Source: an uncultured Bacteroidales bacterium (GTDB taxonomy: Bacteria > Bacteroidota > Bacteroidia > Bacteroidales > FEN-979). From it: a stretch of 64,000 nt of DNA. Each line of letters begins with the position of its first letter. The first letter of the stretch is position 1. This document shows, piece after piece, positions 8,601-56,700 of this stretch. Location: the NCBI GenBank assembly GCA_903903985.1, contig CAIVAT010000122.1, forward strand, positions 1 through 64,000, in the 5' to 3' direction. Below the pieces are notes generated by a model. It saw nothing but the letters and a program-made list of their open reading frames with translations, was not told where the DNA came from and searched no databases. Position numbers and translations under genes: made by a program.

Positions 8601-8677
8601 CGTTTGGGCCGGAAACCGATCCGGATGCCTATCCTGAATCGCGGGATGTGACCATTGGCGTGAATGTAAGTTTTTAA
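5651..8677 (+). CDS. SusC/RagA-family TonB-dependent outer-membrane transporter
   Basis: This 1008-residue protein imports oligosaccharides across the outer membrane using TonB energy. It has a signal peptide (1-24), a carboxypeptidase-regulatory-like Ig domain (about 27-100), a TonB-box-like segment (LDEIVVVGYG, 104-113) and a plug domain (about 115-232). The SusC signatures LYVVDGLPI and GVILITTRRG are present, and a 22-strand barrel follows to the C-terminal Phe. No N-terminal STN (secretin/TonB short N-terminus) domain is present, so signalling through an anti-sigma factor is unlikely. That fits with control by the hybrid two-component regulator downstream. It is immediately followed by its SusD partner. 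Confidence 0.95.
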   Translation: MKIKFFAGLLLLVVFLGNGSVYAQTKTVTGVVISKDDGQTTPGVNVLVKGTTHGVVTDIGGRYSIQADKNDILVFSYIGFQPQEFTVGEQKEINVILVPISTNLDEIVVVGYGSKKKSDLIGSVSSVKNSELIAVPSSDIQGMLKGQVAGLAVSVSNAAPGGSSNVLLRGVNSLKGGTTPLYVVDGLPIDNINEINVNDIETVSVLKDASAQAIYGARASNGVILITTRRGGDSKGKINISYDGYVTFQNVSHQFKLFSAQEYIQVRREAFRGDDADSANGWIGTYKPDSIIFNPTEQQNIKDGNFVDWLDLAFKKNALLTKHDISISGGNEHTKYSASIGIFYQDGIRLSSDYKRYNGKLVLDQDVTKWLTIGASAYYSHYVQNLETQPLTGFITFSPIADLYDANGNMNLYPLGDYKSVNPLWWEQTQDSTYIGDRGIYTGYLEIHPGSIPGLKYHLNGSYDNSYRQAGGFHSLDDPNKYLGKGYINVNYRKVWSYNIENILTYEGKAFKSHRYDITLMQSLYKRDETSTSSIATKLANDFFGINSLGSALESGVTRTEQIRSMVSFMGRINYIINNKYLFNFTIRADGSSVFGSNNKWGYFPSGAFSWNMQNEQFMKKISWISESKLRLSAGQIGNEGISPYGSLSLADAAFYVSNGNPIIGYLPGTSLANPNLKWETTTTFNIGYDFSLFKSRLNGSIEFYRKITTDLLVNRLIPTGLGYSSIPDNLGEIQNTGFEASLNGFVISNHDVSWMIGAKFAMNKNKLTKGVLIDPVTGEYVDDVLNKWFIGQPVNVYYDYKYTGIWQIGDDIAHSPQPKARPGDVRVQDVSGPNGVPDGIITADDRVVIQRDPDFIMSFNTTLKYKGLEFSADVYIVKGAVRRNQFMSDYNSGGTMQGSLNGVYRDYWLPETGGTTAFRPHYDNGLVTQYMSALDYQDASYVRLTNVTIAYNLPDKWVKSMKMSRFKVYVRGDRLLTFTKYQSFGPETDPDAYPESRDVTIGVNVSF

Positions 8678-8700
8678 CCCTTTTGAAAAATTTAAAACCC

Positions 8701-32849: not shown

Positions 32850-32896
32850 GCAAAATTTTATGACCCTGCATTTTCAACATGTGCCAATCAATCATC

Positions 32897-34759
32897 ATGA
32901 TAAAATCGATAACAACAAGGATCTTTGGACTGGTTACCATTCTGTTTCTTCTCCCTGCATTTCCTTTTTCAACAAGCCTTGCACAAACTGCCCTGATCCA
33001 GAATATCCCGAAACGCGCTGTTCTGTCACTCAATGGCAAATGGAACTACATCATCGATCCGTACGAAACGGGTTACTATGATTACCGGACCAAACCCTTT
33101 GATGAGAGCCTGAAACAACAAGACCGGGCATTTTATACAAATACCAAACCTAAAGATAAAACAGAACGTATCGAATATGATTTTGACAAGTCTCCTACGC
33201 TGCTTGTGCCCAGGGATTGGAATTCACAGGAAGAGAAGCTCCTGTATTATGAAGGCACCATCTGGTATAAAAAGTCCTTTGATTTTAAAACATCAGCACC
33301 CGGAAACAGGATTTTTCTTTATTTCGGCGCCGTAAACTACAGGGCAGATGTGTACCTGAACGGTAAAAAACTTGGATTTCACAAAGGTGGGTTTACCCCG
33401 TTTAATTTCGAAGTAACCGGACTGGTCAGGGAGAAGGATAACTTCCTGATTATTAAGGTGAACAACACACGCAAAGCCGATGAAGTCCCAACGCTCAATA
33501 CCGACTGGTGGAATTATGGAGGAATTACACGTGATGTAATTGTTGCTGAAACGCCGGCCACTTTCATCAGCGATTATTTCGTGCAATTGAAAAAAGGTTC
33601 TGAGGATGTTCTTTCAGGGTATGTGAAACTTAACGGGCCGGCCAGGTCGGGTATCGAGGTTGTTTTAAGCATTGCGGAATTAAAAACCCACATAACAGTA
33701 AGAACTGACACATCAGGGATGGCGGCCATTGAACTGGCTGTCCGCGATCTGCACCGTTGGTCACCCCAGGATCCGTTTCTTTATGATGTTAAGATCAGTA
33801 CCACCGTCGATGAAGTCACCGACAGGATAGGTTTTCGCACCATCGTGACAAGCGGGCCGGAAATACTTCTTAACGGAAGACCGATTTTTTTGCGGGGGAT
33901 CAGCATCCATGAGGAAAATGCCATCCGGGGAGGAAGGGCATATTCCAGGGAGGATGCACAAATGCTGCTTTCATGGGCGAAGGAGTTGGGCTGCAACTTT
34001 GTCCGGCTTGCCCATTATCCGCATAATGAAAACATGGCCAGGCTGGCCGATGAAATGGGAATCTTGGTATGGGAAGAAAACCCTGTTTACTGGACCATCC
34101 AGTGGTCAAACCCGGAAACATTCGAAACGGCTGCCAATCAGCTGAAAGAGATGATCTCGCGCGATAAGAACCGGGCTTCGGTCATCGTCTGGTCCATGGC
34201 CAATGAAACACCGGTTACCCCCGAACGGATGACATTCCTGAAGAACCTGGCGGATACTGCCCGGCATATCGACAATGTTCGCCTCATCAGCGCTGCGCTG
34301 GAACAGCATGGTATTCCCGGGAATGAACTGGTGCGTACCATCGAAGACCCTTTCGCGCAATATGTCGACCTGGTCAGTTTCAACGAATATATCGGATGGT
34401 ACGATGGTTTACCGGATAAATGCGCGAAGATTGAATGGAAGTTCGATTTTAACAAACCGGTATTCATTTCAGAATTCGGTGCGGATGCACTTGGTGGCAT
34501 GCATGGCGACAGCCTGACCCGCTGGTCTGAAGAATATCAGCAATATATGTATCAAGAAACACTGAAAATGATCGGAAAGATCCCCAATCTGCGGGGTTGT
34601 TCACCCTGGATCCTGGTCGATTTCAGGTCGCCCAGGCGCGTACTTCCTGGAATCCAGGATGGCTGGAACCGCAAAGGACTTATATCGGAAACGGGCAACA
34701 GGAAAAAGGCCTTTTACACGTTGAAACAATTCTACGAAACAATCAGTAAAAAGTATTGA
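32897..34759 (+). CDS. GH2 beta-glucuronidase-like glycoside hydrolase
   Basis: I prefer the ATG at 32897 because it starts a clean signal peptide (ending STSLAQ); another ATG 18 bp upstream is in frame. The 620-residue enzyme has the GH2 order: sugar-binding jelly roll (about 40-230, YRADVYLNGK, DWWNYGGITRDV), Ig-like domain (about 235-330) and TIM barrel (about 335-620). The acid/base is Glu437 in WSMANETP and the nucleophile is Glu526 in ISEFGADA. The DWWNYGG strand is found in beta-glucuronidases as well as beta-galactosidases. The uronate operon immediately downstream favours release of glucuronic acid in the periplasm. No T9SS tail. Confidence 0.85.
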   Translation: MIKSITTRIFGLVTILFLLPAFPFSTSLAQTALIQNIPKRAVLSLNGKWNYIIDPYETGYYDYRTKPFDESLKQQDRAFYTNTKPKDKTERIEYDFDKSPTLLVPRDWNSQEEKLLYYEGTIWYKKSFDFKTSAPGNRIFLYFGAVNYRADVYLNGKKLGFHKGGFTPFNFEVTGLVREKDNFLIIKVNNTRKADEVPTLNTDWWNYGGITRDVIVAETPATFISDYFVQLKKGSEDVLSGYVKLNGPARSGIEVVLSIAELKTHITVRTDTSGMAAIELAVRDLHRWSPQDPFLYDVKISTTVDEVTDRIGFRTIVTSGPEILLNGRPIFLRGISIHEENAIRGGRAYSREDAQMLLSWAKELGCNFVRLAHYPHNENMARLADEMGILVWEENPVYWTIQWSNPETFETAANQLKEMISRDKNRASVIVWSMANETPVTPERMTFLKNLADTARHIDNVRLISAALEQHGIPGNELVRTIEDPFAQYVDLVSFNEYIGWYDGLPDKCAKIEWKFDFNKPVFISEFGADALGGMHGDSLTRWSEEYQQYMYQETLKMIGKIPNLRGCSPWILVDFRSPRRVLPGIQDGWNRKGLISETGNRKKAFYTLKQFYETISKKY

Positions 34760-34800: not shown

Positions 34801-35652
34801 ATGGATAAACCAAGTTTCAACGACCTGAAAAACTCCCTTACTGTGATCACCGGAGGCGCCGGCATCATCGGAAAAGCAATTGCCATGGGACTCGCCTCCA
34901 TCGGGGGCAGGACGATCATCCTTGACATTGACCTGGGCGCCGCACAGGCGGTTGCCGAGGAGGTCGGGAAACTCACAGGTGCCTTTTCCATGGGGGTTCA
35001 GGCCGATGTCCTGAACAAATCATCGTTGCTGGCTGCCAGGGAAATCATTCACCGCGATGCAGGGAAAATAAATTTCCTGATCAACGGCGCAGGCGGAAAC
35101 GCACCGAAAGGTACAACAAAAATTGAAGAGATCCTTCCGCATCAGGCCAGCGATCTGGACGGTTCGTTTTTCGGACTGGAACTGGAAAGCCTTGAGCGTA
35201 TTTTCGACCTGAATTATTTTGGTACAATCATTCCTACCATGGTTTTTGCAACCGATATGGTGGAAGCCGGCAAGGGTGCTATCCTGAACATCTCTTCGCT
35301 GAGTGCCTTCCACCCGCTCACGAAAATTCCGGCTTATTCCGCTGCCAAAGCAGCAATCAATAATTTTACGGAATGGCTGGCCGTACATATGGCTAAGACC
35401 GGTGTGCGTGTAAACGCCATCGCACCGGGTTTTTTTCTGACCAAACAGAACAGGTTTTTGCTGATTGATGAACAAACCGGAACCCTGTTGCCGCGTGGTG
35501 AAAAAATTATGGCAGGAACACCGATGGGACGATTCGGAACACCCGATGAACTTGCCGGGCCGGTTGCCTTTCTCTTGTCGGATATGGCGCGGTACATCAA
35601 TGGTACCGTGATGCTGGTCGATGGAGGATACAATGCATACAGCGGCGTATAA
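34801..35652 (+). CDS. uxuB: SDR-type D-mannonate oxidoreductase (fructuronate reductase)
   Basis: This 283-residue short-chain dehydrogenase would reduce D-fructuronate to D-mannonate with NAD(P)H. The nucleotide loop is TGGAGIIG (residues 17-24), with an acidic residue at the end of strand 2 (LDID), favouring NADH. The catalytic set is Ser166, Tyr179, Lys183 in the YSAAK motif. The block VNAIAPGFF with TKQN is typical of the Bacillus/Thermotoga SDR form of UxuB, which replaces the larger enterobacterial UxuB. It lies 41 bp after the GH2 gene and opens the tight uronate operon. An alternative would be gluconate 5-dehydrogenase. Confidence 0.8.
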   Translation: MDKPSFNDLKNSLTVITGGAGIIGKAIAMGLASIGGRTIILDIDLGAAQAVAEEVGKLTGAFSMGVQADVLNKSSLLAAREIIHRDAGKINFLINGAGGNAPKGTTKIEEILPHQASDLDGSFFGLELESLERIFDLNYFGTIIPTMVFATDMVEAGKGAILNISSLSAFHPLTKIPAYSAAKAAINNFTEWLAVHMAKTGVRVNAIAPGFFLTKQNRFLLIDEQTGTLLPRGEKIMAGTPMGRFGTPDELAGPVAFLLSDMARYINGTVMLVDGGYNAYSGV

Positions 35653-35718
35653 AGAATTTCAGAACAATTCCCTGCTGCTGAAAAGCATGGAAGGTTAATT
35701 GAAAATTAAGCAGACAAC

Positions 35719-36798
35719 ATGAGCATACATCTGAAAAAAGAGTTTGCCTGGTCATTGCTGGTCCCTACCAGCATGGGGGTGCGCATCAGCCCGTTGGCAG
35801 GGCAACCTGTACATTGCAGCACTACTTTTAGCATGCAGGCGACAAGTGCTGAAACCAATGTGGCAAACATCCCGGCCAGCCTGGGACTGCCGGTGAAAGT
35901 CTTGACCAATTTTGTCAAAGACAGCCCGGTTGCCCTGTTCATAAAAAACAGCCTTGCCGGGCGTCGCATGGCTTATGAAGGAAAAGAAGTGGAACAGGGT
36001 GGCCCCTGGGGATTCCGGCACCAGTTCAACATCGCCGACAGCGGATTTGGCTCCCGTGGCCCGCGCGTACACAACGACCGCGCAGGTGAGGTTGGCCGCA
36101 GCCTGAATGTGAATGATTTTGACCTGGCACGGATCTTTGAAAAAGAGGGCGTTCAAATCATGCACCTTTCCGGCCTGATCGCTGCGTTATCGCCGGAAAC
36201 AGGAGCCTTTTGCCTTGAACTGGCGCGTGCAGCCAGGCGGACAGATACCCGGATTTCGTTTGACCTGAACTTCCGTGCTTCATTCTGGAAGGGACGTGAA
36301 GAGGAATTGCATGGTATTTTTACTGAAATCGCCGGTGTTTCTGATATCCTGGTGGGAAATGAAGAAGATTTTCAGCTTTGCCTTGGTATTGAAGGACCAG
36401 CGGCAGGCGGGAACAGCATTGGTTCGCAGCTTGGCAGTTTTAAAATGATGATAACCCATGCAAAGGAAGCCTTCCCGAATGCTTCGGTATTTGCGACCAC
36501 CTTGCGGCAGGTTGTGAGCGCAAATCAACATTTATGGGGTGCGATCATGCACGAAGGGAACACCTGGCATGTGGCCGAGCCACGCGAAATTACCGTTCTT
36601 GACCGCATTGGCGGTGGTGATGGTTTTGTTGGCGGATTGCTTTACGGAATTCTCAGGGACTGGGAACCGGAAAAGTGGTTGCAGTTTGGTTGGGCAAGTG
36701 GAGCACTTGCCACTACCTTTTTAACCGATTATGCCCAACCTGCCGATGAGGAAATGGTCTGGAGCATCTGGAAAGGAAATGCACGGGTAAGCCGTTAA
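35719..36798 (+). CDS. PfkB-family sugar-acid kinase (KDG kinase or possibly gluconokinase)
   Basis: The 359-residue protein has the ribokinase fold. The PfkB signature is IGGGDGF with the catalytic Asp301 near the C-terminus, and the sugar-binding segment FDLNFRASFW resembles 2-dehydro-3-deoxygluconate kinases (usual FDLNYRxxLW). In the classical pathway it would phosphorylate KDG made by UxuA. In this operon no dehydratase is present, whereas the LarA homologue and Gnd are. A role as gluconate kinase is therefore worth testing. It is 66 bp after uxuB and 22 bp before the next gene. Confidence 0.75.
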   Translation: MSIHLKKEFAWSLLVPTSMGVRISPLAGQPVHCSTTFSMQATSAETNVANIPASLGLPVKVLTNFVKDSPVALFIKNSLAGRRMAYEGKEVEQGGPWGFRHQFNIADSGFGSRGPRVHNDRAGEVGRSLNVNDFDLARIFEKEGVQIMHLSGLIAALSPETGAFCLELARAARRTDTRISFDLNFRASFWKGREEELHGIFTEIAGVSDILVGNEEDFQLCLGIEGPAAGGNSIGSQLGSFKMMITHAKEAFPNASVFATTLRQVVSANQHLWGAIMHEGNTWHVAEPREITVLDRIGGGDGFVGGLLYGILRDWEPEKWLQFGWASGALATTFLTDYAQPADEEMVWSIWKGNARVSR

Positions 36799-36820
36799 TC
36801 TTTAATTACATGGGAAACCA

Positions 36821-38092
36821 ATGATTTATTTCCAGGGTGGTTCGACAAATTCACAGTTAAATTCTGAAACGCTGAGAAAGAGCCTTTTTACAGCGCTCGA
36901 TAAACTTGGCCCGCGGAGCAAAGTGCTGGTCATTCCTCCGGATTTTACCCGTTTTCATTCTTACGCCGGCCTCCTCACTGAAATGGTGTACGAATATTAC
37001 GGCAATGCGGTCACCGATATTCTCCCTGCACTCGGAACCCATACTGCAATGACCGGGACGGAAATCACCACCATGTTTGGAAGTGTTCCACATTCTCTAT
37101 TCAGGGTGCATGACTGGCGGAATGATATCGTTACCCTGGGAGAAGTACCTGAGGAATTTGTTCGGACTGTGTCGGAGAATAAAGTCGGGTTTTCATGGCC
37201 GGCACAGGTAAACAAATTGTTGACCGATCCGGCATTTGATCTTATCCTGTCGATCGGGCAGGTTGTGCCTCATGAAGTGATCGGGATGGCCAACTATAAT
37301 AAAAATATTTTCGTAGGAACGGGTGGCCGCGACGGAATCAACAAAAGCCATTTTCTGGGTGCTGCTTATGGAATGGAAAGGATCATGGGCAAGGCGGATA
37401 ACCCGGTACGGCAGGTACTTAATTATGCCTCAGTACATTTTGCGGCCCATCTGCCTATTGTTTATATCCATACCGTGGTTTCAAAATCAACAGACGGGAA
37501 CCTGGGAGTCAACGGGCTTTTCATTGGAGATGATCAGGAGTGTTTTACCGGCGCTTCCGCCTTATCGATGCAGGTCAATTTTGAACGGGTAGAAGAAACC
37601 CTGAAAAAGGTGGTCGTTTACCTTGATCCTGAAGAGTTTAAAAGCACCTGGCTGGGCAATAAAAGCATTTACCGCACACGCATGGCAATTGCCGACGGTG
37701 GGGAACTGATCATCCTGGGCCCGGGGATCCAAACATTCGGAGAGGACAAGGAAATCGACCGCCTGATAAGAAAGTATGGTTACCGTTCCACCCCTGAGAT
37801 ACTGAAAATGGTCTGGGAAAATGAAGACCTTGCAAACAACCTCAGCGCTGCTGCCCATCTGATCCATGGCTCTTCGGAAAATCGATTTAAAATTACGTAT
37901 TGTCCCGGCCATCTTACTCGTGAGGAAATTGAAGGCGTGAATTTTCATTATGCAGACCTGGCATCGATGTTGAAAAAGTACAATCCTGCTCTGCTGCACG
38001 ATGGATTCAACCAGGTTGGTGATGAAAAGGTGTTTTTCATTTCCAATCCGGCCCTTGGCTTATGGGCACATGAGAGCCGACTCGTACCATAA
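36821..38092 (+). CDS. LarA-family nickel-dependent hydroxyacid racemase/epimerase
   Basis: The 423-residue protein belongs to the lactate-racemase superfamily (DUF2088 N-terminal domain), whose members use a nickel-pincer nucleotide covalently bound to Lys. Compared with LarA of Lactobacillus (His108, His174, Lys184, His200), I find His74 in LGTHTAMT, His151 in VVPHEVIG, Lys161 in NYNKNIF and His177 in NKSHFLG. The spacings of 10 and 16 residues are exactly as in LarA. The PPDFTR patch (residues 39-44) matches LarA's substrate loop. The superfamily includes D-gluconate 2-epimerases that interconvert gluconate and mannonate. This fits the neighbours uxuB and gnd. Cofactor genes larB, larC and larE are not in the window. 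Confidence 0.8.
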   Translation: MIYFQGGSTNSQLNSETLRKSLFTALDKLGPRSKVLVIPPDFTRFHSYAGLLTEMVYEYYGNAVTDILPALGTHTAMTGTEITTMFGSVPHSLFRVHDWRNDIVTLGEVPEEFVRTVSENKVGFSWPAQVNKLLTDPAFDLILSIGQVVPHEVIGMANYNKNIFVGTGGRDGINKSHFLGAAYGMERIMGKADNPVRQVLNYASVHFAAHLPIVYIHTVVSKSTDGNLGVNGLFIGDDQECFTGASALSMQVNFERVEETLKKVVVYLDPEEFKSTWLGNKSIYRTRMAIADGGELIILGPGIQTFGEDKEIDRLIRKYGYRSTPEILKMVWENEDLANNLSAAAHLIHGSSENRFKITYCPGHLTREEIEGVNFHYADLASMLKKYNPALLHDGFNQVGDEKVFFISNPALGLWAHESRLVP

Positions 38093-38101
38093 TATTTAAA
38101 A

Positions 38102-39235
38102 ATGATAACGATCATTGCAGATGATAAGATTCCGTTCCTGAAAGGTGCCCTGGAACCCTGGGCTTCCATCCGTTATATGAACGGCCGGGAAATTGACCAT
38201 TCAGCCGTGGAACATGCCGATGCCCTGCTCATCAGGACCCGGACCCGGTGCGATGAGGACCTTCTTCATGGCTCACAGGTGAAATTCATTGCTACCGCAA
38301 CCATCGGGTTCGAACATATCAACACCGATTATTGTGATAACCATGCAATTGCCTGGACCAATGCCCCGGGATGCAATGCCGCTTCAGTCCAGCAATATAT
38401 AGCCTCTGTCCTGGCAACCCTGGCCCTCCGGCACGATTTTTCGCTTCGGGGTAAGACACTTGGCATTATCGGGGTCGGACATGTTGGGAAAAAGGTTGAA
38501 ACCCTTGGCCGCCTGCTTGGAATGAAGGTGCTTCTGAACGATCCTCCACGTTGGAGGATGGAAGGGAATGGAGGGTTTGTTTCGCTTGCCAGGCTTCTTG
38601 AAGAATCTGAAATCATTACCCTTCATGTTCCACTGAACAGGACCGGGGAAGATAAAACAGCTCATCTCATCAACAAGGATACACTTGGAAGGATCAAACC
38701 CGGCGCCTGGCTGATCAATTCATCGCGGGGTGAAGTGGTAGAAAGTCATGCATTGCAATCGGCATTATCTGAAGGCAGGCTTTCCGGCGCTGCCCTCGAT
38801 GTCTGGGAAAACGAGCCGGTAGTGGATCCGCAACTTCTTGATAAAGTGACCCTTGCCACAACCCACATTGCCGGGTATTCTGCCGATGGGAAAAGGAACG
38901 GAACCGTTCAGGTGGTGCGGAGCCTGGGAGCACATTTTAATCTGCCGGTCACTTCATGGGACGTCTCCGGGCTCCCTGAACCGTCAGATCTTGCAATCAT
39001 CACTGATTGCCTGGACCAATCCCTGGAAAAACTTGTATGCAAGGCAATCCTGCATACCTATGATGTGATTGAAGACGATGTTCGTTTTCGTACAAATCCC
39101 CTTGATTTCGAATGGCTGAGAGGCAATTATCCTGTGAGGAGAGAATTCCCGGCATATAAAATTATGTTAATGAACGGAAGTGCAGAGGCAAAGGCGATGT
39201 TCCTGGCCCTGGGCTTCCAGGTAGTTGAAATATAG
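38102..39235 (+). CDS. pdxB: 4-phosphoerythronate dehydrogenase
   Basis: The 377-residue protein is a D-2-hydroxyacid dehydrogenase with the Rossmann loop GVGHVG (124-129) and the catalytic triad Arg209 (SSRGE), Glu238 (NEPVVD) and His255 (HIAGYSADGK). The PdxB-specific C-terminal dimer domain carries RGNYPVRREF. PdxB oxidises 4-phospho-D-erythronate in pyridoxal-phosphate synthesis. The GCNAASVQQYI segment (90-100) is also typical. It is unusual that a vitamin-B6 gene sits between the LarA homologue (9-bp gap) and gnd (19-bp gap). Function by homology is strong, but recruitment to sugar-acid catabolism cannot be excluded. Confidence 0.85.
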   Translation: MITIIADDKIPFLKGALEPWASIRYMNGREIDHSAVEHADALLIRTRTRCDEDLLHGSQVKFIATATIGFEHINTDYCDNHAIAWTNAPGCNAASVQQYIASVLATLALRHDFSLRGKTLGIIGVGHVGKKVETLGRLLGMKVLLNDPPRWRMEGNGGFVSLARLLEESEIITLHVPLNRTGEDKTAHLINKDTLGRIKPGAWLINSSRGEVVESHALQSALSEGRLSGAALDVWENEPVVDPQLLDKVTLATTHIAGYSADGKRNGTVQVVRSLGAHFNLPVTSWDVSGLPEPSDLAIITDCLDQSLEKLVCKAILHTYDVIEDDVRFRTNPLDFEWLRGNYPVRREFPAYKIMLMNGSAEAKAMFLALGFQVVEI

Positions 39236-39254
39236 CTTTCTAAAGATTTAATCT

Positions 39255-40709
39255 ATGAGCAAACTCGCAGATATCGGATTGATCGGTCTGGCCGTAATGG
39301 GCGAAAACCTCGTGCTGAACATGGCAGGCAAAGGATTTACGGTAGCCGTTTACAACCGTTCAATTGATAAAGTCGACCATTTTGTGCATGGCCGGGGCAA
39401 TCACAACAATATCATCGGAACCCGTTCGATTGCCGCATTTGTCAGTGCCCTCGAACGGCCCAGGAAGATCATGCTGATGGTAAAAGCCGGCAGCCCCGTG
39501 GATGAATTTATCGAATTGCTGCTTCCATTTCTTGAAAAGGGAGATATTATCATCGACGGCGGCAATTCACACTTTCCTGATTCAAACCGCCGAACGGCAT
39601 ACCTTGAAAGCAAAGGGATTTTGTTTATAGGTACAGGTGTCTCAGGGGGTGAGGAAGGCGCTTTGCGCGGCCCTTCCATCATGCCCGGAGGATCTCCGGC
39701 AGCCTGGCCGTTTGTAAAACCGATATTTCAGGCCATCGCCGCCAAAGTTGGAGAGGGGATTCCATGCTGCGACTGGGTTGGCGAAAACGGAGCAGGCCAT
39801 TTTGTAAAAATGGTCCATAACGGGATCGAGTATGGTGACATGCAGCTGATATGTGAAGCTTACCAGGTGATGCGCGACCTGCTTGGGATGACGGCGCATG
39901 AAATTCATGAGGTTTTTGCCGAATGGAACGAAGGTGAACTGGGAAGCTACCTGGTGGAGATCACGCGGGATATTTTTGCTTACCGCGATGAGGATGGGTC
40001 TGCACTGGTCGATCACATCCTGGATACAGCAGGCCAAAAAGGAACAGGGAAATGGACGGGCACTGCGGCCCTCGATCTGGGCGTTCCGTTAACATTGATC
40101 GGCGAAGCGGTGTTTGCTCGTTGCCTCTCCTCGCAAAAAGAGGAAAGGGTTGAAGCCTCGAAAATATTGGCCGGGCCGGCACGCAGGCGCATGGATAACC
40201 GAAAGAGTTTCCTGGCCCGTTTAAAAGATGCCCTCTATGCTTCAAAGATCGTATCGTATACCCAGGGTTATCTCCTGATGCGGGCTGCCGCAAAGGAAAA
40301 CAAATGGAACCTGAATTACGGAGGGATCGCACTGATGTGGAGGGGAGGGTGCATCATTCGCTCTGTTTTCCTTGAAAAAATAAGGGATGCTTACACCCTT
40401 GATCCGCAACTTGCAAACCTGATGCTTGACCCGTTTTTCAGGGATAACCTGATGCACATTCAAACAGGTTGGAGAACAGTGATCTCCGAAGCCGTTCTTA
40501 GTGGAATACCAGTACCGGCGATGGCATCGGCCCTGACTTACTATGATGGGTTCAGAACAGCAAAACTGCCTGCAAACCTGCTGCAGGCACAGCGTGATTA
40601 CTTTGGAGCGCATACCTATGAACGCACCGATCGTCCACGCGGAGAATTCTTCCATACCAACTGGACAGGCCACGGTGGAGATACGGCATCAACAACGTAT
40701 AATGTATGA
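39255..40709 (+). CDS. gnd: 6-phosphogluconate dehydrogenase, decarboxylating
   Basis: The 484-residue enzyme oxidatively decarboxylates 6-phosphogluconate to ribulose 5-phosphate. The cofactor loop GLAVMG lies near the start. NRxS-type residues determine NADP: AVYNRSIDKVD. The catalytic Lys185, His188 and Asn189 are in HFVKMVHNGIEYGD. The C-terminal tail ends with the conserved HTNWTGHGG. The length is the usual 470-485. It is not next to zwf or pgl, which would be normal in an oxidative pentose-phosphate operon; it sits inside the uronate operon. This supports a supply of 6-phosphogluconate from a sugar acid. Its stop overlaps an upstream ATG of the next gene. Confidence 0.95.
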   Translation: MSKLADIGLIGLAVMGENLVLNMAGKGFTVAVYNRSIDKVDHFVHGRGNHNNIIGTRSIAAFVSALERPRKIMLMVKAGSPVDEFIELLLPFLEKGDIIIDGGNSHFPDSNRRTAYLESKGILFIGTGVSGGEEGALRGPSIMPGGSPAAWPFVKPIFQAIAAKVGEGIPCCDWVGENGAGHFVKMVHNGIEYGDMQLICEAYQVMRDLLGMTAHEIHEVFAEWNEGELGSYLVEITRDIFAYRDEDGSALVDHILDTAGQKGTGKWTGTAALDLGVPLTLIGEAVFARCLSSQKEERVEASKILAGPARRRMDNRKSFLARLKDALYASKIVSYTQGYLLMRAAAKENKWNLNYGGIALMWRGGCIIRSVFLEKIRDAYTLDPQLANLMLDPFFRDNLMHIQTGWRTVISEAVLSGIPVPAMASALTYYDGFRTAKLPANLLQAQRDYFGAHTYERTDRPRGEFFHTNWTGHGGDTASTTYNV

Positions 40710-40726
40710 TCAATAAAATATTAACA

Positions 40727-41425
40727 ATGAAAAAAAGAATTATCCTGATTTCTCTCTTCATTGCAGGACTATTGCAGGTCTACGCACAGACAAAGAATAA
40801 CCCTAAGCTATTCACTGATTTTTTTAATCAGGACAGCTGCATATTGCTCACCTCAGGCCGCAATACCTATTTTATCCTTGAGCCCGGTTACCAGTTGATA
40901 TTACAGGGTATTGAAGGGAAAGACACTACCCGGCTGATTATTACTGTATTAACTGAAATAAAAAGAATAGGCACCGTTGAAACAAGGGTGGTTGAAGAAA
41001 ATGAATCCGTAAACGGGAAAGTAGTAGAGATTTCCAGGAACTATATGGGCTTTTGCAAACAAACAGGCAGCATTTTTTATTTTGGAGAAGATGTGGATAT
41101 TTATAAAGGAGGAAAAATTGTAAGCCATTCAGGTGGTTGGATTGCAGAAGGAAAAAACAGGGCTGGTATAATGATGCCGGGATTCCCATTGCTTGGAGCA
41201 AGATATTACCAGGAAATTGCTCCCGGAGTTGCCATGGACCGGGCAGAAATTATCAGTATCAGTGAGCAAGTTAACGCACCTGCCGGACCGTTTACGAATG
41301 TAATGAAGATTGAAGAAACAACTCCGCTTGAACCAAAGGACAAAGAATTCAAGCTTTATGCACCCGGTATAGGACTGATCAAAGACGAAAACCTATTGCT
41401 TGTAAAGTATGGCATTAATAAATAA
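40727..41425 (+). CDS. Secreted protein of unknown function in the uronate operon
   Basis: I chose the ATG at 40727, giving the signal peptide KKRIILISLFIAGLLQVYAQ; an in-frame ATG at 40706 overlaps gnd and would add seven residues. The 232-residue mature protein is beta-rich and compact. Its last segment, LYAPGIGLIKDENLLLVKYG, is typical of a family of bacterial secreted proteins without known function that I cannot name with confidence. I see no catalytic motif, lipobox or T9SS tail. Its position between gnd and an SGNH hydrolase suggests a periplasmic accessory role, but no more can be said. Confidence 0.65.
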   Translation: MKKRIILISLFIAGLLQVYAQTKNNPKLFTDFFNQDSCILLTSGRNTYFILEPGYQLILQGIEGKDTTRLIITVLTEIKRIGTVETRVVEENESVNGKVVEISRNYMGFCKQTGSIFYFGEDVDIYKGGKIVSHSGGWIAEGKNRAGIMMPGFPLLGARYYQEIAPGVAMDRAEIISISEQVNAPAGPFTNVMKIEETTPLEPKDKEFKLYAPGIGLIKDENLLLVKYGINK

Positions 41426-42800
41426 AACAGAAGAGTTTACACCTGCCCGGTTGCCCACCTGTCCTCCAGAGCGCCTGGCCTCCAGTCATCCGGACCGCCA
41501 TTTATGGATCACACTTGTAGCCCTTTCACTGGTTTTTTTCAATGTATTTCCGGGTATTTCATCGGGCCAGGATAAGAAGATCGCTGTTTTTGGTTCCTCC
41601 GTCGCAAAGGGTTCAGGCGATACGACCGGAACGGGAGGTTATGCCGGGATGTTTAAAACCCTTCTTGAAAACCGGGGATGGATGGTAGTAAATGTTTCCC
41701 GCGGGGGTGACAATACCGTGAAAATTATGCCGCGGTTTGAAAAGGAGCTGCTGCCTGAAAAACCGGGCTATGTGATCATCGGTTTATCCCTGGGAAACGA
41801 GGGGATTGCCAATGCCTCCGAACTCAAACGAAACAGGATTTTTGAACGGTTCAGAAGCGGAATACTGCACCTGATCAACCTTTGCCGCGAAAACGGGATG
41901 GTTCCGGTTGTAGTGAACTGCTACGCGAGGAATGATTTTAACCAGGAGCAATATGAAGCGGTAAGGAAAATGAACCTGCTGATCAATACCTGGAATGTTG
42001 CAAGTATCAACGCCCTGGGTGCGATCGACGATGGAACCGGAAAGTGGGCAGCGGGATACTGGCATGACAAATCGCATCCGAACGAAAAAGGACACCGGGA
42101 GATTTATTATGCAATCGTCCCTACTTTGTTTGATGCGCTCGGAACAGGAAAGAAGTGCCCCGAAAAGTTCCGTGGAAGCAGCTATCTTTCGGTCTCTTCC
42201 GGGGCTTCAGCCAAACCGCTGGTTTACATTCCCGATGACACGATCCATTCCTTCACGGTCAGTTTCCAGGTTAAAAGCACGGATGAAGGAACTGTCTCGG
42301 CCCTTGCCGGAAAGAATACCCATGTAACCGTGTCATTGGAAAACGGCAGGATCAGGTTTCAAACATCGGCTAATGAAATTTTTGAAGCAGATACTTCGGA
42401 TGAAAACAAAGGATGGCAATATGTAGTGATCAGCTACAGGCATTCGACTGGCCATACTGTTTTCTATGCGAACGGAAAACCCATTGGAATCAGGTCTGGT
42501 CCCCTGGATTTCAGGGAATTGATCCTTGGAGGCAGCGGCAGTGAAATGGTCTCCCCGCCGCAGCAGGCAGGATACAGGGAATTAATGATTTTCCGGTCGG
42601 CCCTGAACACGGATGAAGTGCATGCCCTCTATAATGATCAGTTGCTTCAATCAAGCCTGGAGATCTATGCCCCGCTCAACGATCCCGTATTCCGTGCAGG
42701 AACAGAGGCGGCAAATCGCGCTCAGAGCATGTCGAAACTGATGATCACGGGCAGCCACCTTGTTTCTGCATCAGAGGAAAATGGAGAGACCTCCAAATGA
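41409..42800 (+). CDS. SGNH/GDSL hydrolase with C-terminal LamG-like domain
   Basis: The 463-residue protein has an unusual 30-residue Pro-rich leader before one hydrophobic segment (LWITLVALSLVFFNVF), which serves as a signal anchor or late signal peptide. No alternative start lies between. The SGNH domain (about 55-245) shows block I FGSSVAKGSG with Ser, block II with GGDN, block III LSLGNEG and block V DKSHPNEKGH with Asp/His. Such enzymes are carbohydrate esterases or acyl hydrolases. The C-terminal half (about 255-420) is a concanavalin A/LamG-like beta sandwich with GWQYVVISYRH and YANGKPIG. Its start overlaps the preceding gene by 17 bp. It probably deacylates the glycan in the periplasm. 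Confidence 0.8.
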   Translation: MALINKTEEFTPARLPTCPPERLASSHPDRHLWITLVALSLVFFNVFPGISSGQDKKIAVFGSSVAKGSGDTTGTGGYAGMFKTLLENRGWMVVNVSRGGDNTVKIMPRFEKELLPEKPGYVIIGLSLGNEGIANASELKRNRIFERFRSGILHLINLCRENGMVPVVVNCYARNDFNQEQYEAVRKMNLLINTWNVASINALGAIDDGTGKWAAGYWHDKSHPNEKGHREIYYAIVPTLFDALGTGKKCPEKFRGSSYLSVSSGASAKPLVYIPDDTIHSFTVSFQVKSTDEGTVSALAGKNTHVTVSLENGRIRFQTSANEIFEADTSDENKGWQYVVISYRHSTGHTVFYANGKPIGIRSGPLDFRELILGGSGSEMVSPPQQAGYRELMIFRSALNTDEVHALYNDQLLQSSLEIYAPLNDPVFRAGTEAANRAQSMSKLMITGSHLVSASEENGETSK

Positions 42801-42825
42801 ATATCATCATTAAACTGTCATGTGA

Positions 42826-44226
42826 ATGAAACCTTTTCCTGATAAACACTTCCTGTTGCATGGCCCGCGGGCCATCGAATTGTTCGATCAATTTGCAGCA
42901 GTCCAGCCAATCATCGATTATCACTGCCATCTCAACCCGAAGGATATTGCAGCAGACCGCCGGTTTGAAAATCTTTCCCAGGCCTGGCTTGCCGGCGATC
43001 ATTATAAATGGCGTGCCATGCGCACCAATGGCATTGATGAACGATTCTGTACAGGGGATGCAGATGATTATGAAAAATTCTCAAAATGGGCTGAAACTGT
43101 TCCGTACACCCTGCGCAATCCCCTTTATCACTGGACCCACCTTGAGTTGCAGCGTTATTTCAGCATCTATAAACTGCTGAACCCGGCCACTGCAAGGGAA
43201 ATCTATGATGAAGCTTCAATGAAGCTTAACACCAGCGAATTCTCGGTGAGGAACCTGTTGCGAAAAATGAAGGTGGAACTGGTTTGTACAACCGATGACC
43301 CCATCGATTCTCTCGAGCATCATCGGAAGATCAGGGAAGATCATTTTGAAATCAGCGTGATTCCGGCCTGGCGGCCCGATAAAGCCATCGCAGCTGAGGA
43401 TGTAACTACTTACAACCGGTATCTTGATAAACTGTCGGAAGCTGCCGGAATAGAAATTACACAATTTGATGATCTGCTGGAAGCCCTCCAAATACGCCAT
43501 GACTATTTTCATCAGCATGGCTGCAGGATTTCAGATCATGGACTCGACCGGTTTTATATTAAAGAAAACCTGAAAGGGGAGGTTGGTTCAATATTTAATA
43601 AGTTGCGGAGAGGGCTGTTACTGGACCACCATGATGTCAAAAAGTTCAAATCGGCAATGCTGTATCATTTGGCAATCATGGATCATGAAAAAAACTGGGT
43701 GCAGCAGTATCATATCGGGGCGATGCGCAACAACAACAGCAAGATGTTTAACCTGGTTGGAGCAGATACCGGATTTGATTCGATCGGCGATCTTCCTGTT
43801 GCCGAAAGCATGTCCGTTTTCCTCGACAGGCTGAACAGGGAAGAAAAACTGGCAAAAACCATTTTGTACAACCTGAACCCTGCAGATAATGAAGTGTATG
43901 CCACCATGACCGGCAATTTCCAGGACGGTTCCGTACCCGGGAAAATCCAATGGGGCGCAGGATGGTGGTTCCTCGATCAGAAGGATGGTATTGAAAAGCA
44001 TCTCAATGCCTTATCATCCCTGGGTTTGCTGAGCCGGTTCGTGGGCATGCTGACCGATTCCAGGAGTTTTCTCTCCTTCCCGAGGCATGAGTATTTCAGG
44101 CGGATTCTTTGCAATATTTTAGGAAATGAAATGGAAAGGGGAGAACTCCCTGATGATATCGACCTGGTGGGCAGAATGGTGTCAGCCATTTGTTACCAGA
44201 ATGCCCGGAAATATTTCAATTTCTGA
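42826..44226 (+). CDS. uxaC: Glucuronate isomerase
   Basis: The 466-residue enzyme interconverts D-glucuronate and D-fructuronate (and galacturonate/tagaturonate). The metal-site start is DYHCHLNP with His33 and His35, and the usual AADRRFENLSQAWL follows. CTTDDPIDSLEHH (about 151) and the conserved GAGWWFLDQKDG with LTDSRSFLSFPRHEYFRRI give an unmistakable match. Length is normal. It closes the operon that starts at uxuB and precedes a hexuronate-type transporter by about 210 bp. It is the clearest proof that the locus handles uronic acids. Confidence 0.97.
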   Translation: MKPFPDKHFLLHGPRAIELFDQFAAVQPIIDYHCHLNPKDIAADRRFENLSQAWLAGDHYKWRAMRTNGIDERFCTGDADDYEKFSKWAETVPYTLRNPLYHWTHLELQRYFSIYKLLNPATAREIYDEASMKLNTSEFSVRNLLRKMKVELVCTTDDPIDSLEHHRKIREDHFEISVIPAWRPDKAIAAEDVTTYNRYLDKLSEAAGIEITQFDDLLEALQIRHDYFHQHGCRISDHGLDRFYIKENLKGEVGSIFNKLRRGLLLDHHDVKKFKSAMLYHLAIMDHEKNWVQQYHIGAMRNNNSKMFNLVGADTGFDSIGDLPVAESMSVFLDRLNREEKLAKTILYNLNPADNEVYATMTGNFQDGSVPGKIQWGAGWWFLDQKDGIEKHLNALSSLGLLSRFVGMLTDSRSFLSFPRHEYFRRILCNILGNEMERGELPDDIDLVGRMVSAICYQNARKYFNF

Positions 44227-44421: not shown

Positions 44422-44436
44422 GTGAAACAAAAATCC

Positions 44437-45738
44437 ATGAATGAAAAAATAGGACAATACCGGTGGACCATCTGTGCGCTGGTGTTCTTTGCTACCACGA
44501 TAAATTATCTTGACCGTCAGGTGATCAGCCTGCTGAAACCATATCTTGAAGAGGCGTTTCAGTGGACTGAAAAGGATTACTCCCACATTGTAATGGCCTT
44601 TCAGTTTGCGTATGCCATCGGGTTGATCGGGTTTGGGCGTTTCATTGATAAAATCGGCACCAAACTCGGATATGCATTGTCGCTCACGGTTTGGAGCATC
44701 GCTGCCATCGCCCATGCCTTGGCCCGGAATACTTTTGGTTTTGGTGTGGCACGCGCAGTCCTTGGATTAAGCGAAGCCGGTAATTTTCCTGCTGCCATCA
44801 AGACGGTCGCTGAATGGTTTCCAAAGAAGGAACGGGCACTGGCTACAGGTATATTTAATTCCGGATCAAATGTCGGAGCGATCATTGCTCCGCTGGTGGT
44901 ACCGTGGATTGCAGTCAATTGGGGCTGGCAGGAGGCCTTTATCCTTACCGGGGCTATCGGATTTATTTGGCTCATTCTCTGGTTCATTTATTATGAAGTA
45001 CCGGCAAAGCAGAAGCGATTGTCGAAGGATGAATTCACCTATATCCATGCGGATACTGACAATTCGGCTGAAGACCCCGGCAAACCGGTAAGTTGGATGA
45101 AACTGCTCGGTTTTAAACAAACATGGGCATTCGTGATCGGTAAATTTATGACCGATCCGATCTGGTGGTTTCTGCTTTTCTGGTTGCCATCTTTTCTGAA
45201 AACAGAATATGGAATGACCGGGACTCAGGTTGGTTTACCCATTGCACTGGTCTATGTGATGACCACCTTCGGAAGCATTGGTGGCGGCTGGATCTCGGGA
45301 TATCTGATCAGGAAGGGCTGGCCTGTTTACCGGGCACGTAAAACATCCATGCTGGGTTTCGCTTTGTGTGTTATCCCGGTTGTTTCAGCACAGGCGCTTG
45401 GCACGATCAGTCCCTGGCTGGCCATCATCGTGATCGGCATTGCTGCCTCGGCCCACCAGGCATGGTCGGCAAATATCTTTACCACGGTATCCGATATGTT
45501 CCCCAAAAAGGCAGTTGGCTCCGTGGTGGGCATCGGAGGCATGGCCGGTGCCATCGGGGGTCTGTTAATTTCCTGGTTTACCGGCTTGATCCTTGATCAC
45601 TATAAAGTACTGGGGCATATTCAAACCGGGTATTACATCTTATTTATCATAGCAGGTTCAGCATATCTCATCGCATGGATTATCATGCATCTGCTGACCC
45701 CTAAAATGGCGCAGGTTGAACTTCCATCACGGGATTAA
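44437..45738 (+). CDS. MFS hexuronate transporter (ExuT-like, anion:cation symporter family)
   Basis: The ATG at 44437 is preferred over an in-frame GTG 15 bp earlier. The 433-residue protein has 12 membrane helices. The family signatures are INYLDRQVISLLKPYL in helix 1, RFIDKIGTKLGY between helices 2 and 3, and GLSEAGNFPAAIKTVAEWF with helix 4. FIDKxG-type loops and the central cytoplasmic loop are typical of the anion:cation symporter branch that includes ExuT, which carries glucuronate and galacturonate with protons. It follows uxaC by 210 bp. Together with the operon it would supply free glucuronate released by the GH2 enzyme. Confidence 0.85.
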   Translation: MNEKIGQYRWTICALVFFATTINYLDRQVISLLKPYLEEAFQWTEKDYSHIVMAFQFAYAIGLIGFGRFIDKIGTKLGYALSLTVWSIAAIAHALARNTFGFGVARAVLGLSEAGNFPAAIKTVAEWFPKKERALATGIFNSGSNVGAIIAPLVVPWIAVNWGWQEAFILTGAIGFIWLILWFIYYEVPAKQKRLSKDEFTYIHADTDNSAEDPGKPVSWMKLLGFKQTWAFVIGKFMTDPIWWFLLFWLPSFLKTEYGMTGTQVGLPIALVYVMTTFGSIGGGWISGYLIRKGWPVYRARKTSMLGFALCVIPVVSAQALGTISPWLAIIVIGIAASAHQAWSANIFTTVSDMFPKKAVGSVVGIGGMAGAIGGLLISWFTGLILDHYKVLGHIQTGYYILFIIAGSAYLIAWIIMHLLTPKMAQVELPSRD

Positions 45739-53713: not shown

Positions 53714-56700
53714 TTATTGCTTGATGATCTTCATCACGCCGGAATGGTCATCGCAGATCACGCGGATAAAATAGCATCCTGCCCGGTTGCCATCCAATGA
53801 AAATGTATGCTTCTGTTCACCGGAAATGGAGGATGTGAGAACTTTTTCCCCCTGCATGCCAAATATTTCCACCTTTGTAATTGCAAGAGGATTTTCCTGT
53901 GTTAATTCCAGGGTGAAAGATCCGTTTGTCGGGTTAGGGTAAATTCTGAAGAAGGATGATGTTTTTGGTAATTCTGACTGTTCCGGTGCTGTTTTTAACG
54001 TTAGCATCGAAGGCATTTTCATCCCGCAGAATGGACCGCTGGGAGCAATCGTACCATGCATTTGTCCGCCCGGTTGAACCGTTGTTCCCGGGTAAAAAAT
54101 GATGTTCTGGCCGGCGATCATGTTCGCAATTCCTCCTGTTTCAACAGTAAATGTGCTGGGGGCAACCGCAACGGAGATCGTTTGTACCGCATCGTAACAT
54201 TCGCTTTGTCCGTTTATCACATTCCCGCTGACAGTTTGATTTAGTGGGATCACCGTCATGGTTACCGTGTTGGATGTTGCCGGATTGCCTGAAACGCAGG
54301 CTGCATCTGAGGTCAGTTCAACATAAACCTGGTCGCCATCAGCAGGTTGATAGGTGTATAAAGAGCCTGTCTCGCCGTAAACCAGGCTTGCATTCTTATA
54401 CCATGCATAGGCCGGGCTGACGCCTCCGTTAACCGGTGTAGCTGTAAAGGTCACTGAGGTCCCGGCAGAAACCGGGTTGGCAGACGATGCAATGGATACG
54501 CTAACCGGCAAGAGCGGGTTGATCGTTATGACCGCAGTACCTGACATATCTGTGGAGCACCCTCCGGCTGTCCGGGTCCCGGTAACAGAATAGGATCCTG
54601 CAAGAACCTGGCTGCCAAACGAAATGGAACCACCTGTGCCGGGTTGCGGTGATCCAACCGGTGTTGTGTCCCCGATATACAGCTGGTATAAGACTCCTGT
54701 TTCTGAACCGTTAAGACCGACAGGCATTCCGGTTCCCCCGGAACAATAAGCTCCACCGCCTGTTACATTGAATACTGCAGGTGGTACGCAGGCTGCCTCG
54801 CCAATCATGAAATCACTGAAGGACCCAATCCCGGTAACCTTCGTAGTGGTGGCCGTGCGCACATCTACCGTAGTTGAACTCCATGTTGACGGATCCCATT
54901 TTTTCACGATAAAATTATTCGGGTCGGCTCCTCCAAGAAGGTCACCCGCGGAGAATGTAAAGGTGGCATCACAGTTTGTAAATGCAATGCTGCTGTTCAT
55001 GAGTGTGTAATACCGGTTGACACATTTTGCGGTATTGATGCCTGATGTTGAGGCATTTGGATGGAGGCCAGGAGTTGTACTGGCAGTCAAGGTGCCGGAG
55101 GTTGTAACACCAGCAAAGTCGACAGCAACAGGTGTATAATTGGTGGCATCCCCGATGGCGAAATTTGTCGAAGACGTCCCTGCCGGGATGGTCATCTGAA
55201 GTTTCCCGTTCACATATTTTCCGGTTCCTGCACCGGCAAGATTTACTCCTGCTGAGAGATACAGGGTGTTTGCGCCGGTAGAAATGATTCCTGCCTGGAA
55301 GACCAGGCTGTCTGCTGCAATATCCCTGTCAAGGACAATTCCTGCCGAATTGTTCACCGTAATATAACTTCTTGTTCCAAAAGTCAGTGTTCCCGATCCG
55401 CCGATCGGTTGTGCTGCTGTTCCGCTCAGGGTCAGGTTGGTCAATTTTGTTGCATTTCCAAAGGTCAGGGTTGCAGCAGGGGCGACCGAAATGTTGCCTT
55501 TGATCACCATTCCACCGGTGAAGTCCCAGTTGACAATACCGCTGGTAACTATATAATTATCGCATGTCATGGGGTTGCTTCCCTGGTTATTCTGGGTTGT
55601 AGGGGAATCATTTTCAAAGTTTGCGTAGGTTCTGCCGCTATAAGAAGGTCCACCACTTGAAGCTGTAAATTTGTAAAGACTTCCTGATTCAAAAGTAACA
55701 ACTGAACTTGGTTGTCCTGCACCAAACGGATTGGCTCCGGCATCCTGGATATAGGTTGACCCGGCCTGGAATTTAACCGAATTCAGGGCGGTGGTTCCAA
55801 ACAAATTGCCGGTGAAACCCGTGGTCACCTTGCAAACACTGCCATTCGCAAAAACCAGGCTGTTGGCATCTGTTGCCTTTAATACATGAGGAGCTCCGCT
55901 CACTGTCATTGAACCACTGATCAACCCGTTGGTCCCTGCATTCAGGGATATTGTTAAAACGGGAGTTCCTGAAATATTCAATTCCGAACCACTTCCGGAA
56001 ACGGTCAGATCATCACCGGCAGTTCCGGCAATGGTGAGGATCGCCGAGGGAACAGCCTGCAAAGTTATTTTAGAACCGCCGGAAACCGATAACTGGGCAA
56101 TCGTTTGAGCAGGCACATTGATCACCGTGTATGTGTTTCCATTATTGAATACCAGGATGTCATTAATTGCTGGAGCGATACGGGAAGGGCTCCAGTTTCC
56201 CGAGTTCTGCCAGCTATTGTCAGATGCACCGGTCCATGTATAAGTGGCCGGCGGTCCAAGAACAAATCCACTGCAGGTTACATTCTGCGTTGCACCGCCA
56301 CCCGCGTTTGAAACAGTTTCTGCATTGTAATTTCCTACTGGTAACCCGGCTTTTAATCGCACATGAATCTTGGTTGCCGGCAAGGTGGCTGACGAATATC
56401 CAACATTAACGGATCCGAAAAAATTAATGCTATCCTTTGAAACCTCGTAGTTGGTCAGGCAGCCTACTGCAATATTTCCGGGAGCTCCCGTAAGATTTAC
56501 GCCGCTCAACAGGTAGGATTGAGAAGCGGATGGTCCGGAACCCGTTACATAATTAAAGCCGCTTAAAGAGGTAGGTACAACACTCAGTACGGGAGTGAGA
56601 ACAGGTGTGACAACCACGTTGAAGTTGTCATATATTCCTTTGTTTGAGGCGCCGGCGCCATTGCTGTGATTCCACAAAAAACCAAAGCTTGTCATGGCTG

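Follow-up and report, generated by a model that had tools for sequence, protein, structure and literature searches.

An operon of an uncultured Bacteroidales bacterium joins a group-18 LarA homologue to 6-phosphogluconate dehydrogenase in a proposed glucuronate route to the pentose phosphate pathway

Evaluating a 64,000-nucleotide stretch from an uncultured Bacteroidales bacterium (positions 1-64,000 of contig CAIVAT010000122.1, assembly GCA_903903985.1; hereafter the window, with its source genome labelled G000), we found a plus-strand operon whose gene content suggests that glucuronate would be catabolised through the oxidative pentose phosphate pathway with an epimerase acting before a kinase, a reading that we regard as fairly likely in this form and probably right in outline. 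Under this proposal, glucuronate released by a GH2 glycosidase and imported by a major facilitator superfamily (MFS) protein would be converted to fructuronate by UxaC and reduced by UxuB to D-mannonate, whose C2 would be inverted by a LarA homologue of group 18 to yield D-gluconate, after which a PfkB-family kinase would form 6-phosphogluconate and Gnd would decarboxylate it to ribulose 5-phosphate. Redox neutrality of such a path needs an NADPH-accepting UxuB or a transhydrogenase. The genes whose joint occurrence marks the GntE shunt of Rodionova et al., for UxuB, an epimerase of the LarA type, a kinase for sugar acids and Gnd, stand together here, with gluconate as our proposed substrate of the kinase.

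The genes lie in the order UxuB, PfkB kinase, LarA homologue, PdxB, Gnd, a secreted protein, an SGNH hydrolase, UxaC and then the MFS gene, with intergenic gaps from UxuB through UxaC of 66, 22, 9, 19, -4, -17 and 25 bp and 195 bp between UxaC and the MFS gene, and these coordinates and gaps, with the family matches, bear out the initial annotation of one plus-strand operon. Its extent from UxuB through UxaC and on to the MFS gene also stands, except that the start lies at least one gene earlier: a GH2 gene (32879-34759, +) ends 41 bp upstream of uxuB and is likely the operon's first gene. Among the route's enzymes, the UxuB-type short-chain dehydrogenase/reductase, a fructuronate reductase (D-mannonate oxidoreductase; 34801-35652, +), passed the cut-off at subfamily level (NF006132/PRK08277, 344 bits, cut-off 281), the decarboxylating NADP-dependent 6-phosphogluconate dehydrogenase Gnd (39255-40709, +) reached 762 bits against TIGR00873 (cut-off 427), and the uronate isomerase UxaC (42826-44226, +) reached 626 bits against NF002794 (cut-off 387) and 678 bits against PF02614. 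The PfkB-family kinase (35719-36798, +), a proposed gluconate (or mannonate) 6-kinase, matched PF00294 (55 bits, cut-off 25.8) and no NCBIfam model above its cut-off (best 153 bits against a cut-off of 700).

The canonical isomerase (Ashwell) pathway, UxaC-UxuB-UxuA-KdgK-KdgA, has the UxaC and UxuB steps in common with the proposed route and differs in its lower half, which was not found in G000. The initial annotation had noted that mannonate dehydratase (UxuA) and 2-keto-3-deoxy-6-phosphogluconate (KDPG) aldolase were missing from the window, and this holds across the whole G000 assembly (5.2 Mb, 195 contigs, 87.26% complete), in which there was no match to UxuA (PF03786; enolase-superfamily mannonate dehydratases and altronate dehydratase were not searched), to KDPG/4-hydroxy-2-oxoglutarate aldolase (Eda; PF01081) or to glucose-6-phosphate dehydrogenase (Zwf), and a single match to Gnd (PF00393), which is the operon copy. 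The pair of UxuA and KDPG aldolase that marks the canonical pathway was not found in this draft. With none of UxuA, Eda and Zwf and only one Gnd, it follows that within the assembled families searched, to which other gluconokinases and enolase-type dehydratases did not belong, phosphorylated gluconate would be the source of 6-phosphogluconate and LarA the exit for mannonate.

Profile searches of 149 Bacteroidales genomes, G000 included, placed group-18 LarA above cut-off in 22 (23 at E<=0.001). UxuA, Eda and Zwf were all without a match in four of these 22, namely G000, G112 (98% complete), G119 (96%) and G136 (92%), and because the latter three show the same absences, the sole-route state is more than an artefact of a single draft. 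Elsewhere the shunt and the canonical genes coexist: the 22 group-18 genomes include 9 with UxuA (a weak fragment in G007), 16 with Eda, 14 with Zwf, 22 with PdxB and 13 with LarC, against 20, 28, 18, 49 and 3, respectively, among the other 127, so that all five are enriched with group-18 LarA in comparisons that are uncorrected for kinship. Since UxuA and Eda occur more frequently alongside group-18 LarA than elsewhere in the order, we rejected LarA as a general replacement of UxuA across the order. The sole other searched member of the G000 family, G100, has Zwf and no group-18 LarA, UxuA or Eda, and the cluster linkage is not conserved in it.

The LarA homologue (36821-38092, +) scored 654 bits against NCBIfam NF052594 (NPN_18_hexonate, "nickel-dependent putative hexonate epimerase"; cut-off 500), and a sequence search of the PDB at E<=0.01 yielded 4NAR alone, which PMC7583248 describes as Thermotoga maritima GntE2. 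An AlphaFold2 model (mean predicted local distance difference test score 87, with substrate-loop residues 153-156 below 50) gave 18 Foldseek matches at E<=0.001, all of the LarA type and led by 4nar at 22% identity. Placing residues by alignment to 4nar and by the list in PMC7583248 (catalytic D72, H108, H174 and K298; binding the nickel-pincer nucleotide (NPN), R75, K184 and H200), we located the catalytic residues D41, H74, H151 and K281 and the NPN-binding residues R44, K161 and H177 in the window protein, and found them in 69 of 69 aligned rows, 48 of which, from named genomes, had been found via patterns holding H74 or K161 and 21 of which, from the order, had been found without such patterns. 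The substrate signature given for GntE in PMC7583248, a loop E(V/S) and a tryptophan in alpha-11, likewise appears in all 69 rows as E152, V153 and W277, with the A/V part in alpha-14 unscored. LarA homologue groups 19 and 20 (GntE1 and GntE2; PMC7583248) share with group 18 the hexonate signature and the NPN and catalytic residues, and the fold predicted for the window protein matches GntE2. From these likenesses we propose that the window LarA is a group-18 mannonate/gluconate 2-epimerase that would use NPN.

The linkage of these genes was evaluated in two sets of loci, with neighbouring genes predicted by a simple script and each given the name of the window or relative protein that it matched best. 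The order set comprised the neighbourhoods of 20 of the 21 other group-18 LarA loci; the named set comprised the best 80 of at least 563 loci, in 75 of which a LarA frame was called; of those, the 44 with 4 kb on both sides were scorable. Within 4 kb of LarA, the 20 order loci held UxuB in 19, Gnd in 17, PdxB in 13, any of three kinase types in 13, UxaC in 8, UxaE in 6, UxuA in 3 and Eda in 1. The three without Gnd at this distance are G074, whose contig ends just past PdxB, G022, where Gnd lies 5.5 kb away, and G064, with none in the stretch. In the scorable named loci Gnd was within 4 kb in 30 of 44, which by phylum is 22/22 Bacteroidota, 4/4 Ignavibacteriota, 1/1 Spirochaetota, 3/5 Planctomycetota and 0/1 for a locus with no phylum assigned, the remainder being the Acidobacteriota and Verrucomicrobiota loci taken up below. 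The linkage of LarA, Gnd, kinase and UxuB recurs far above chance, and the uxuB-larA-gnd neighbourhood, whose conservation the initial annotation had proposed as a check, recurs both in the order (UxuB 19/20, Gnd 17/20) and in the scorable Bacteroidota elsewhere. The clusters that carry UxaE would admit galacturonate too. A GFO/IDH/MocA oxidoreductase follows LarA ahead of PdxB or Gnd in several loci (L046:8309-9310, L049:2063-3052, L093, L101, L110, L125, L126, L127, L129 and L131).

Kinases of the window type kept close to LarA: across the 95 loci in which LarA had been called we counted 33, with 25 adjoining LarA, 6 within two genes, 2 elsewhere and none beside Eda. By contrast with these, kinases of the KdgK type (n=12 at >=50% identity to an Eda-linked reference, the reference counted) were never at LarA and in 7 cases beside Eda. 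In a quick tree of 62 kinases, a branch with SH-aLRT (approximate likelihood-ratio test) support of 100 separated 32 window-type rows, the window's own included, from all the others, the Eda-linked kinases among them, with a program warning of long branches meeting. Besides lying across that branch from the Eda-linked kinases, the window kinase scored 19.7 bits against DhDoxglucKinKdgK, whose cut-off is 400. Its nearest solved structures include 2-keto-3-deoxygluconate (KDG) kinases (2afb, 1v19), and its substrate is not readable from these solved relatives. In other clusters (L035, L047, L050, L052, L070, L085, L100, L108, L110, L118 and L123) a PFK-A-family kinase (PF00365) and, after it, a HAD protein just upstream of LarA replace PfkB, which hints at a PFK-type hexonate kinase. 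A kinase of variable ancestry beside LarA and Gnd would be the look expected of a step that phosphorylates gluconate or mannonate.

Several observations weigh against the proposed route. We found no assay of a group-18 LarA in the open-access literature (a 2024 paper uses another group numbering in which group 18 is unnamed, and one of its assayed enzymes could belong there), and the G000 assembly is just 87% complete. UxuA is commoner with group-18 LarA (9/22 versus 20/127, Fisher P=0.016 uncorrected for kinship), as is Eda (16/22 versus 28/127), and 3/20 order and 5/75 named loci have UxuA inside the 4-kb flanks of LarA. None of the three kinase types lies within 4 kb in 7/20 order and 15/44 scorable named loci, and distant kin of KdgK do occur beside LarA: 15 kinases have the KdgK reference as best match at <50% identity, and 12 of them adjoin LarA. 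Gnd is within 4 kb in 0/6 Acidobacteriota and 0/5 Verrucomicrobiota scorable named loci, and with neither LarC nor LarE detected in G000 the supply of the LarA cofactor is left unexplained.

Weighing these points, the alternative that survives best, though we judge it unlikely, is that the kinase acts first, with PfkB making 6-phosphomannonate and LarA serving as a 6-phosphomannonate 2-epimerase that yields 6-phosphogluconate, for an equal net path. Extracts of Lactobacillus suebicus phosphorylate mannonate and then epimerise it, with no genes identified for these steps in the accessible text of that report (PMC6978723), the kinase gene precedes LarA in the window, and basic residues of group 18 with no assigned role, such as R197, R285 and R355, are present in 69/69 rows, all of which would fit this order. 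Against it, groups 19 and 20, whose signatures are similar, take D-mannonate that carries no phosphate according to PMC7583248, and the three kinds of kinase found beside LarA (window-type PfkB, other PfkB and PFK-A with HAD) say nothing on the order of steps.

A canonical route whose genes were missed, being unassembled or of unsearched families, with the kinase as a KDG kinase and LarA and Gnd serving free gluconate, we hold to be quite improbable. Such an explanation draws on the 87.26% completeness of the assembly, on the KDG kinases 2afb and 1v19 among the nearest solved structures, on the many group-18 relatives that carry UxuA and Eda, and on the enolase-superfamily mannonate dehydratases, which lay outside the families searched; it is countered by the equal absences in the more complete G112, G119 and G136 and by the separation of window-type kinases from Eda-linked KDG kinases in the tree, with 0/33 beside Eda. 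Least probable of all is that LarA acts on another hexonate and that Gnd and PdxB are present as housekeeping genes, for although PMC7583248 goes no further than to suspect "a hexonate" for group 18 and allows that the native substrate of group 19 may differ, and although the scorable loci from Acidobacteriota and Verrucomicrobiota have no Gnd close to LarA, the UxuB product D-mannonate and the Gnd substrate 6-phosphogluconate are joined by exactly a C2 inversion and one phosphorylation, and Zwf, the single other source of 6-phosphogluconate that was searched, was not found in 8/22 group-18 genomes. Group-18 loci in which Gnd is not within 4 kb include, in Acidobacteriota and Verrucomicrobiota, L069, L072, L082, L086, L091, L109 and L120, and in some Verrucomicrobiota (L082 and L086) LarA stands beside a different PfkB clade; the pathway downstream of LarA may differ in these two phyla.

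Returning to the epimerase-then-kinase route, its most interesting part is the cofactor question. LarC (PF01969) was found in 16/149 order genomes and LarE (TIGR00268 above cut-off) in the identical 16. In G000 there was no match to LarC, and three matches to the LarE model reached at best 33 bits against a cut-off of 150; LarB was not searched there. Maturation of LarA by LarBCE, as the initial annotation had supposed, accordingly finds no counterpart in G000 for LarC or LarE. Neither gene was found in 9/22 group-18 genomes (G000, G022, G058, G072, G074, G096, G108, G119 and G136), five of which are >=97% complete, and LarC had no match in 18 of the 50 named genomes examined (out of the 80; completeness not given). 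The search does see divergent LarC, because short versions were found at 72-83 bits in the G143, L055 and L092 (Geofilum rubicundum) genomes. In G143 (L133:6098-7652) a LarC-like protein of 269 aa stands beside LarB, with a LarC1 score of 76 bits that is below the cut-off of 90 and with no LarC2 domain, and the genome with a short LarC besides G143 and Geofilum rubicundum is a Marinilabiliaceae metagenome-assembled genome (MAG).

Of two simple accounts of the LarC-less state, one was rejected and the other found no support. Cofactor residues are not lost in LarC-less genomes, being kept in 9/9 order rows and in 26/26 rows overall, and a single origin is unsupported, with 17 changes of state on the LarA tree (69 rows, 26 LarC-less; 24/65 inner branches weak), at least 9 of them forced by well-supported branches. 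The label is nonetheless somewhat clustered on that tree, in that 12/500 shuffles were as low, and part of the state changes will be draft-genome gaps. Because LarC and LarE were not found, the NPN residues are kept and the LarC-less state is scattered, we conclude that NPN is taken up, or is made by enzymes that these models miss, or that both genes were missed in several drafts. More speculatively, and with more doubt than conviction, many group-18 bacteria may depend on LarA as their sole exit from mannonate to central metabolism without making its cofactor themselves, obtaining NPN or a late precursor from neighbours, as a shared, vitamin-like compound, or relying on unknown enzymes. The opposite case, larBCE without larA, is put at ~15% of genomes in PMC11796402, and none among the literature matches listed treats NPN salvage, judged by title and the start of the abstract.

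PdxB, a 4-phosphoerythronate dehydrogenase (38102-39235, +; NF001309, 443 bits, cut-off 434), lies between LarA and Gnd in 12 of the 13 order loci that have PdxB within 4 kb, and one match of >=315 bits occurs in each of the 22 group-18 genomes, G000 included, versus 49/127 others. We rejected PdxB as a uronate-specific extra copy, given this single match of >=315 bits per group-18 genome and none at 141-315 bits in all 149. Also rejected was another role for PdxB arising from an absence of vitamin B6 synthesis: PdxJ is present in 21/22 group-18 genomes, including G000 and excepting G118, and vitamin B6 synthesis can therefore explain PdxB. It is possible, though we advance it only tentatively and by analogy, that a second function of PdxB next to Gnd would be to protect that enzyme. 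4-Phosphoerythronate, which arises from erythrose 4-phosphate, is reported to inhibit Gnd of Bacillus subtilis, and expression of Escherichia coli "PdxB" to help a cpgA mutant that accumulates 4-phosphoerythronate (PMC12445079), and that paper calls "PdxB" a paralogue of glyceraldehyde-3-phosphate dehydrogenase (GAPDH) that acts on erythrose 4-phosphate. Because a GAPDH-paralogue label mismatches the description of the PdxB family, the support that the cpgA mutant lends to this idea is unsure. Across the order PdxJ is present in 133/149 genomes and high-scoring PdxB in 71, and many genomes must therefore fill the PdxB step otherwise.

The GH2 glycosidase is beta-glucuronidase-like by its Pfam GH2 domains (PRK10150, 273 bits, below the cut-off of 544), has a counterpart in G119 at the equivalent position with 73% identity, and is a probable glucuronate-releasing enzyme. 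A secreted protein with no assigned function (40706-41425, +), its secretion read from the N-terminus, matched nothing in Pfam or NCBIfam at E<=0.001. The SGNH/GDSL hydrolase with a laminin-G-like domain (41409-42800, +; PF13472, PF13385), whose G119 counterpart is 56% identical, is possibly a deacetylase acting on the polymer. For the MFS carrier (44422-45738, +; PF07690), organic anion/hexuronate type by similarity (TIGR00893, 252 bits, below the cut-off of 395), hexuronate is the specificity that we infer from sequence likeness. G119, of a different family, shows the order GH2-UxuB-PfkB-LarA-PdxB-Gnd-SGNH-UxaC-MFS, in which the secreted protein is not part of the cluster. Upstream of the window's cluster stand a SusC/SusD pair and a two-component regulator of the hybrid type (5651-10302 and 14208-18308), an arrangement as in a polysaccharide-utilisation locus, and promoter and terminator scans did no better than shuffles (24 versus 20.9 and 18 versus 18.1, respectively). 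Long proteins flank the operon (10397-32798 and 53714-57907), with a Por_Secre_tail sorting domain above cut-off in 5/9 scanned and CBM96 in 2/9.

Set against known systems, the reaction logic is already known and the pathway is not new. Mannonate-to-gluconate epimerisation, gluconokinase and Gnd were proposed for T. maritima by Rodionova et al. in 2012, as recounted in PMC6978723, PMC7583248 and PMC3750489, and D-mannonate/D-gluconate epimerisation by a T. maritima LarA homologue was shown in 2020, with a KM of 17 mM D-mannonate for GntE2 (PMC7583248). The route to ribulose 5-phosphate given in the initial annotation fits the absences, the sole Gnd, the linkage, the LarA signature and the kinase clade; its statement that no description of such a pathway was known falls to this 2012 proposal and the 2020 GntE activity. 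T. maritima resembles the window in the LarA-homologue step, the gluconokinase and Gnd, the kinases not being set against each other by sequence, and in having UxaE and Gnd genes in one locus: its genes form a gnd-uxaRED-gntEK set with a separate kdgAK-uxuBA operon (PMC3750489). It differs in that its epimerase is of group 20 and kdgAK-uxuBA is present, whereas here the epimerase is of group 18, PdxB is a member of the cluster, and UxuA, Eda and Zwf were searched for and not found. The galacturonate pathway of L. suebicus also joins mannonate to 6-phosphogluconate and Gnd and is redox-neutral to ribulose 5-phosphate, but there the kinase comes first, a 6-phosphomannonate 2-epimerase follows, and a phosphoketolase lies below; the genes of its two new steps are not identified in the text available to us (PMC6978723).

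Assays are reported for groups 19 and 20 (PMC7583248) and for LarAH15 (PMC11770544), which was not placed relative to group 18, whereas our open-access search returned none for group 18 itself. As far as that literature was searched, the novelty lies in placing group 18 at this step, in its linkage to Gnd among Bacteroidota and further phyla, in the kinases that go with it, in the genomes for which no alternative route turned up, and in those in which LarC and LarE were not found. LarA homologue group 18 thereby gains a concrete proposed substrate and pathway, and the gene linkage points to a nickel-dependent shunt that carries uronic acids into the pentose phosphate pathway and is found in Bacteroidota and Ignavibacteriota, in part of the Planctomycetota and in a single Spirochaetota MAG. 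In such bacteria the expected yield from glucuronate would change to CO2, NADPH and pentose phosphate rather than pyruvate and triose, and how LarA functions in the genomes where LarC and LarE were not found becomes a testable question.

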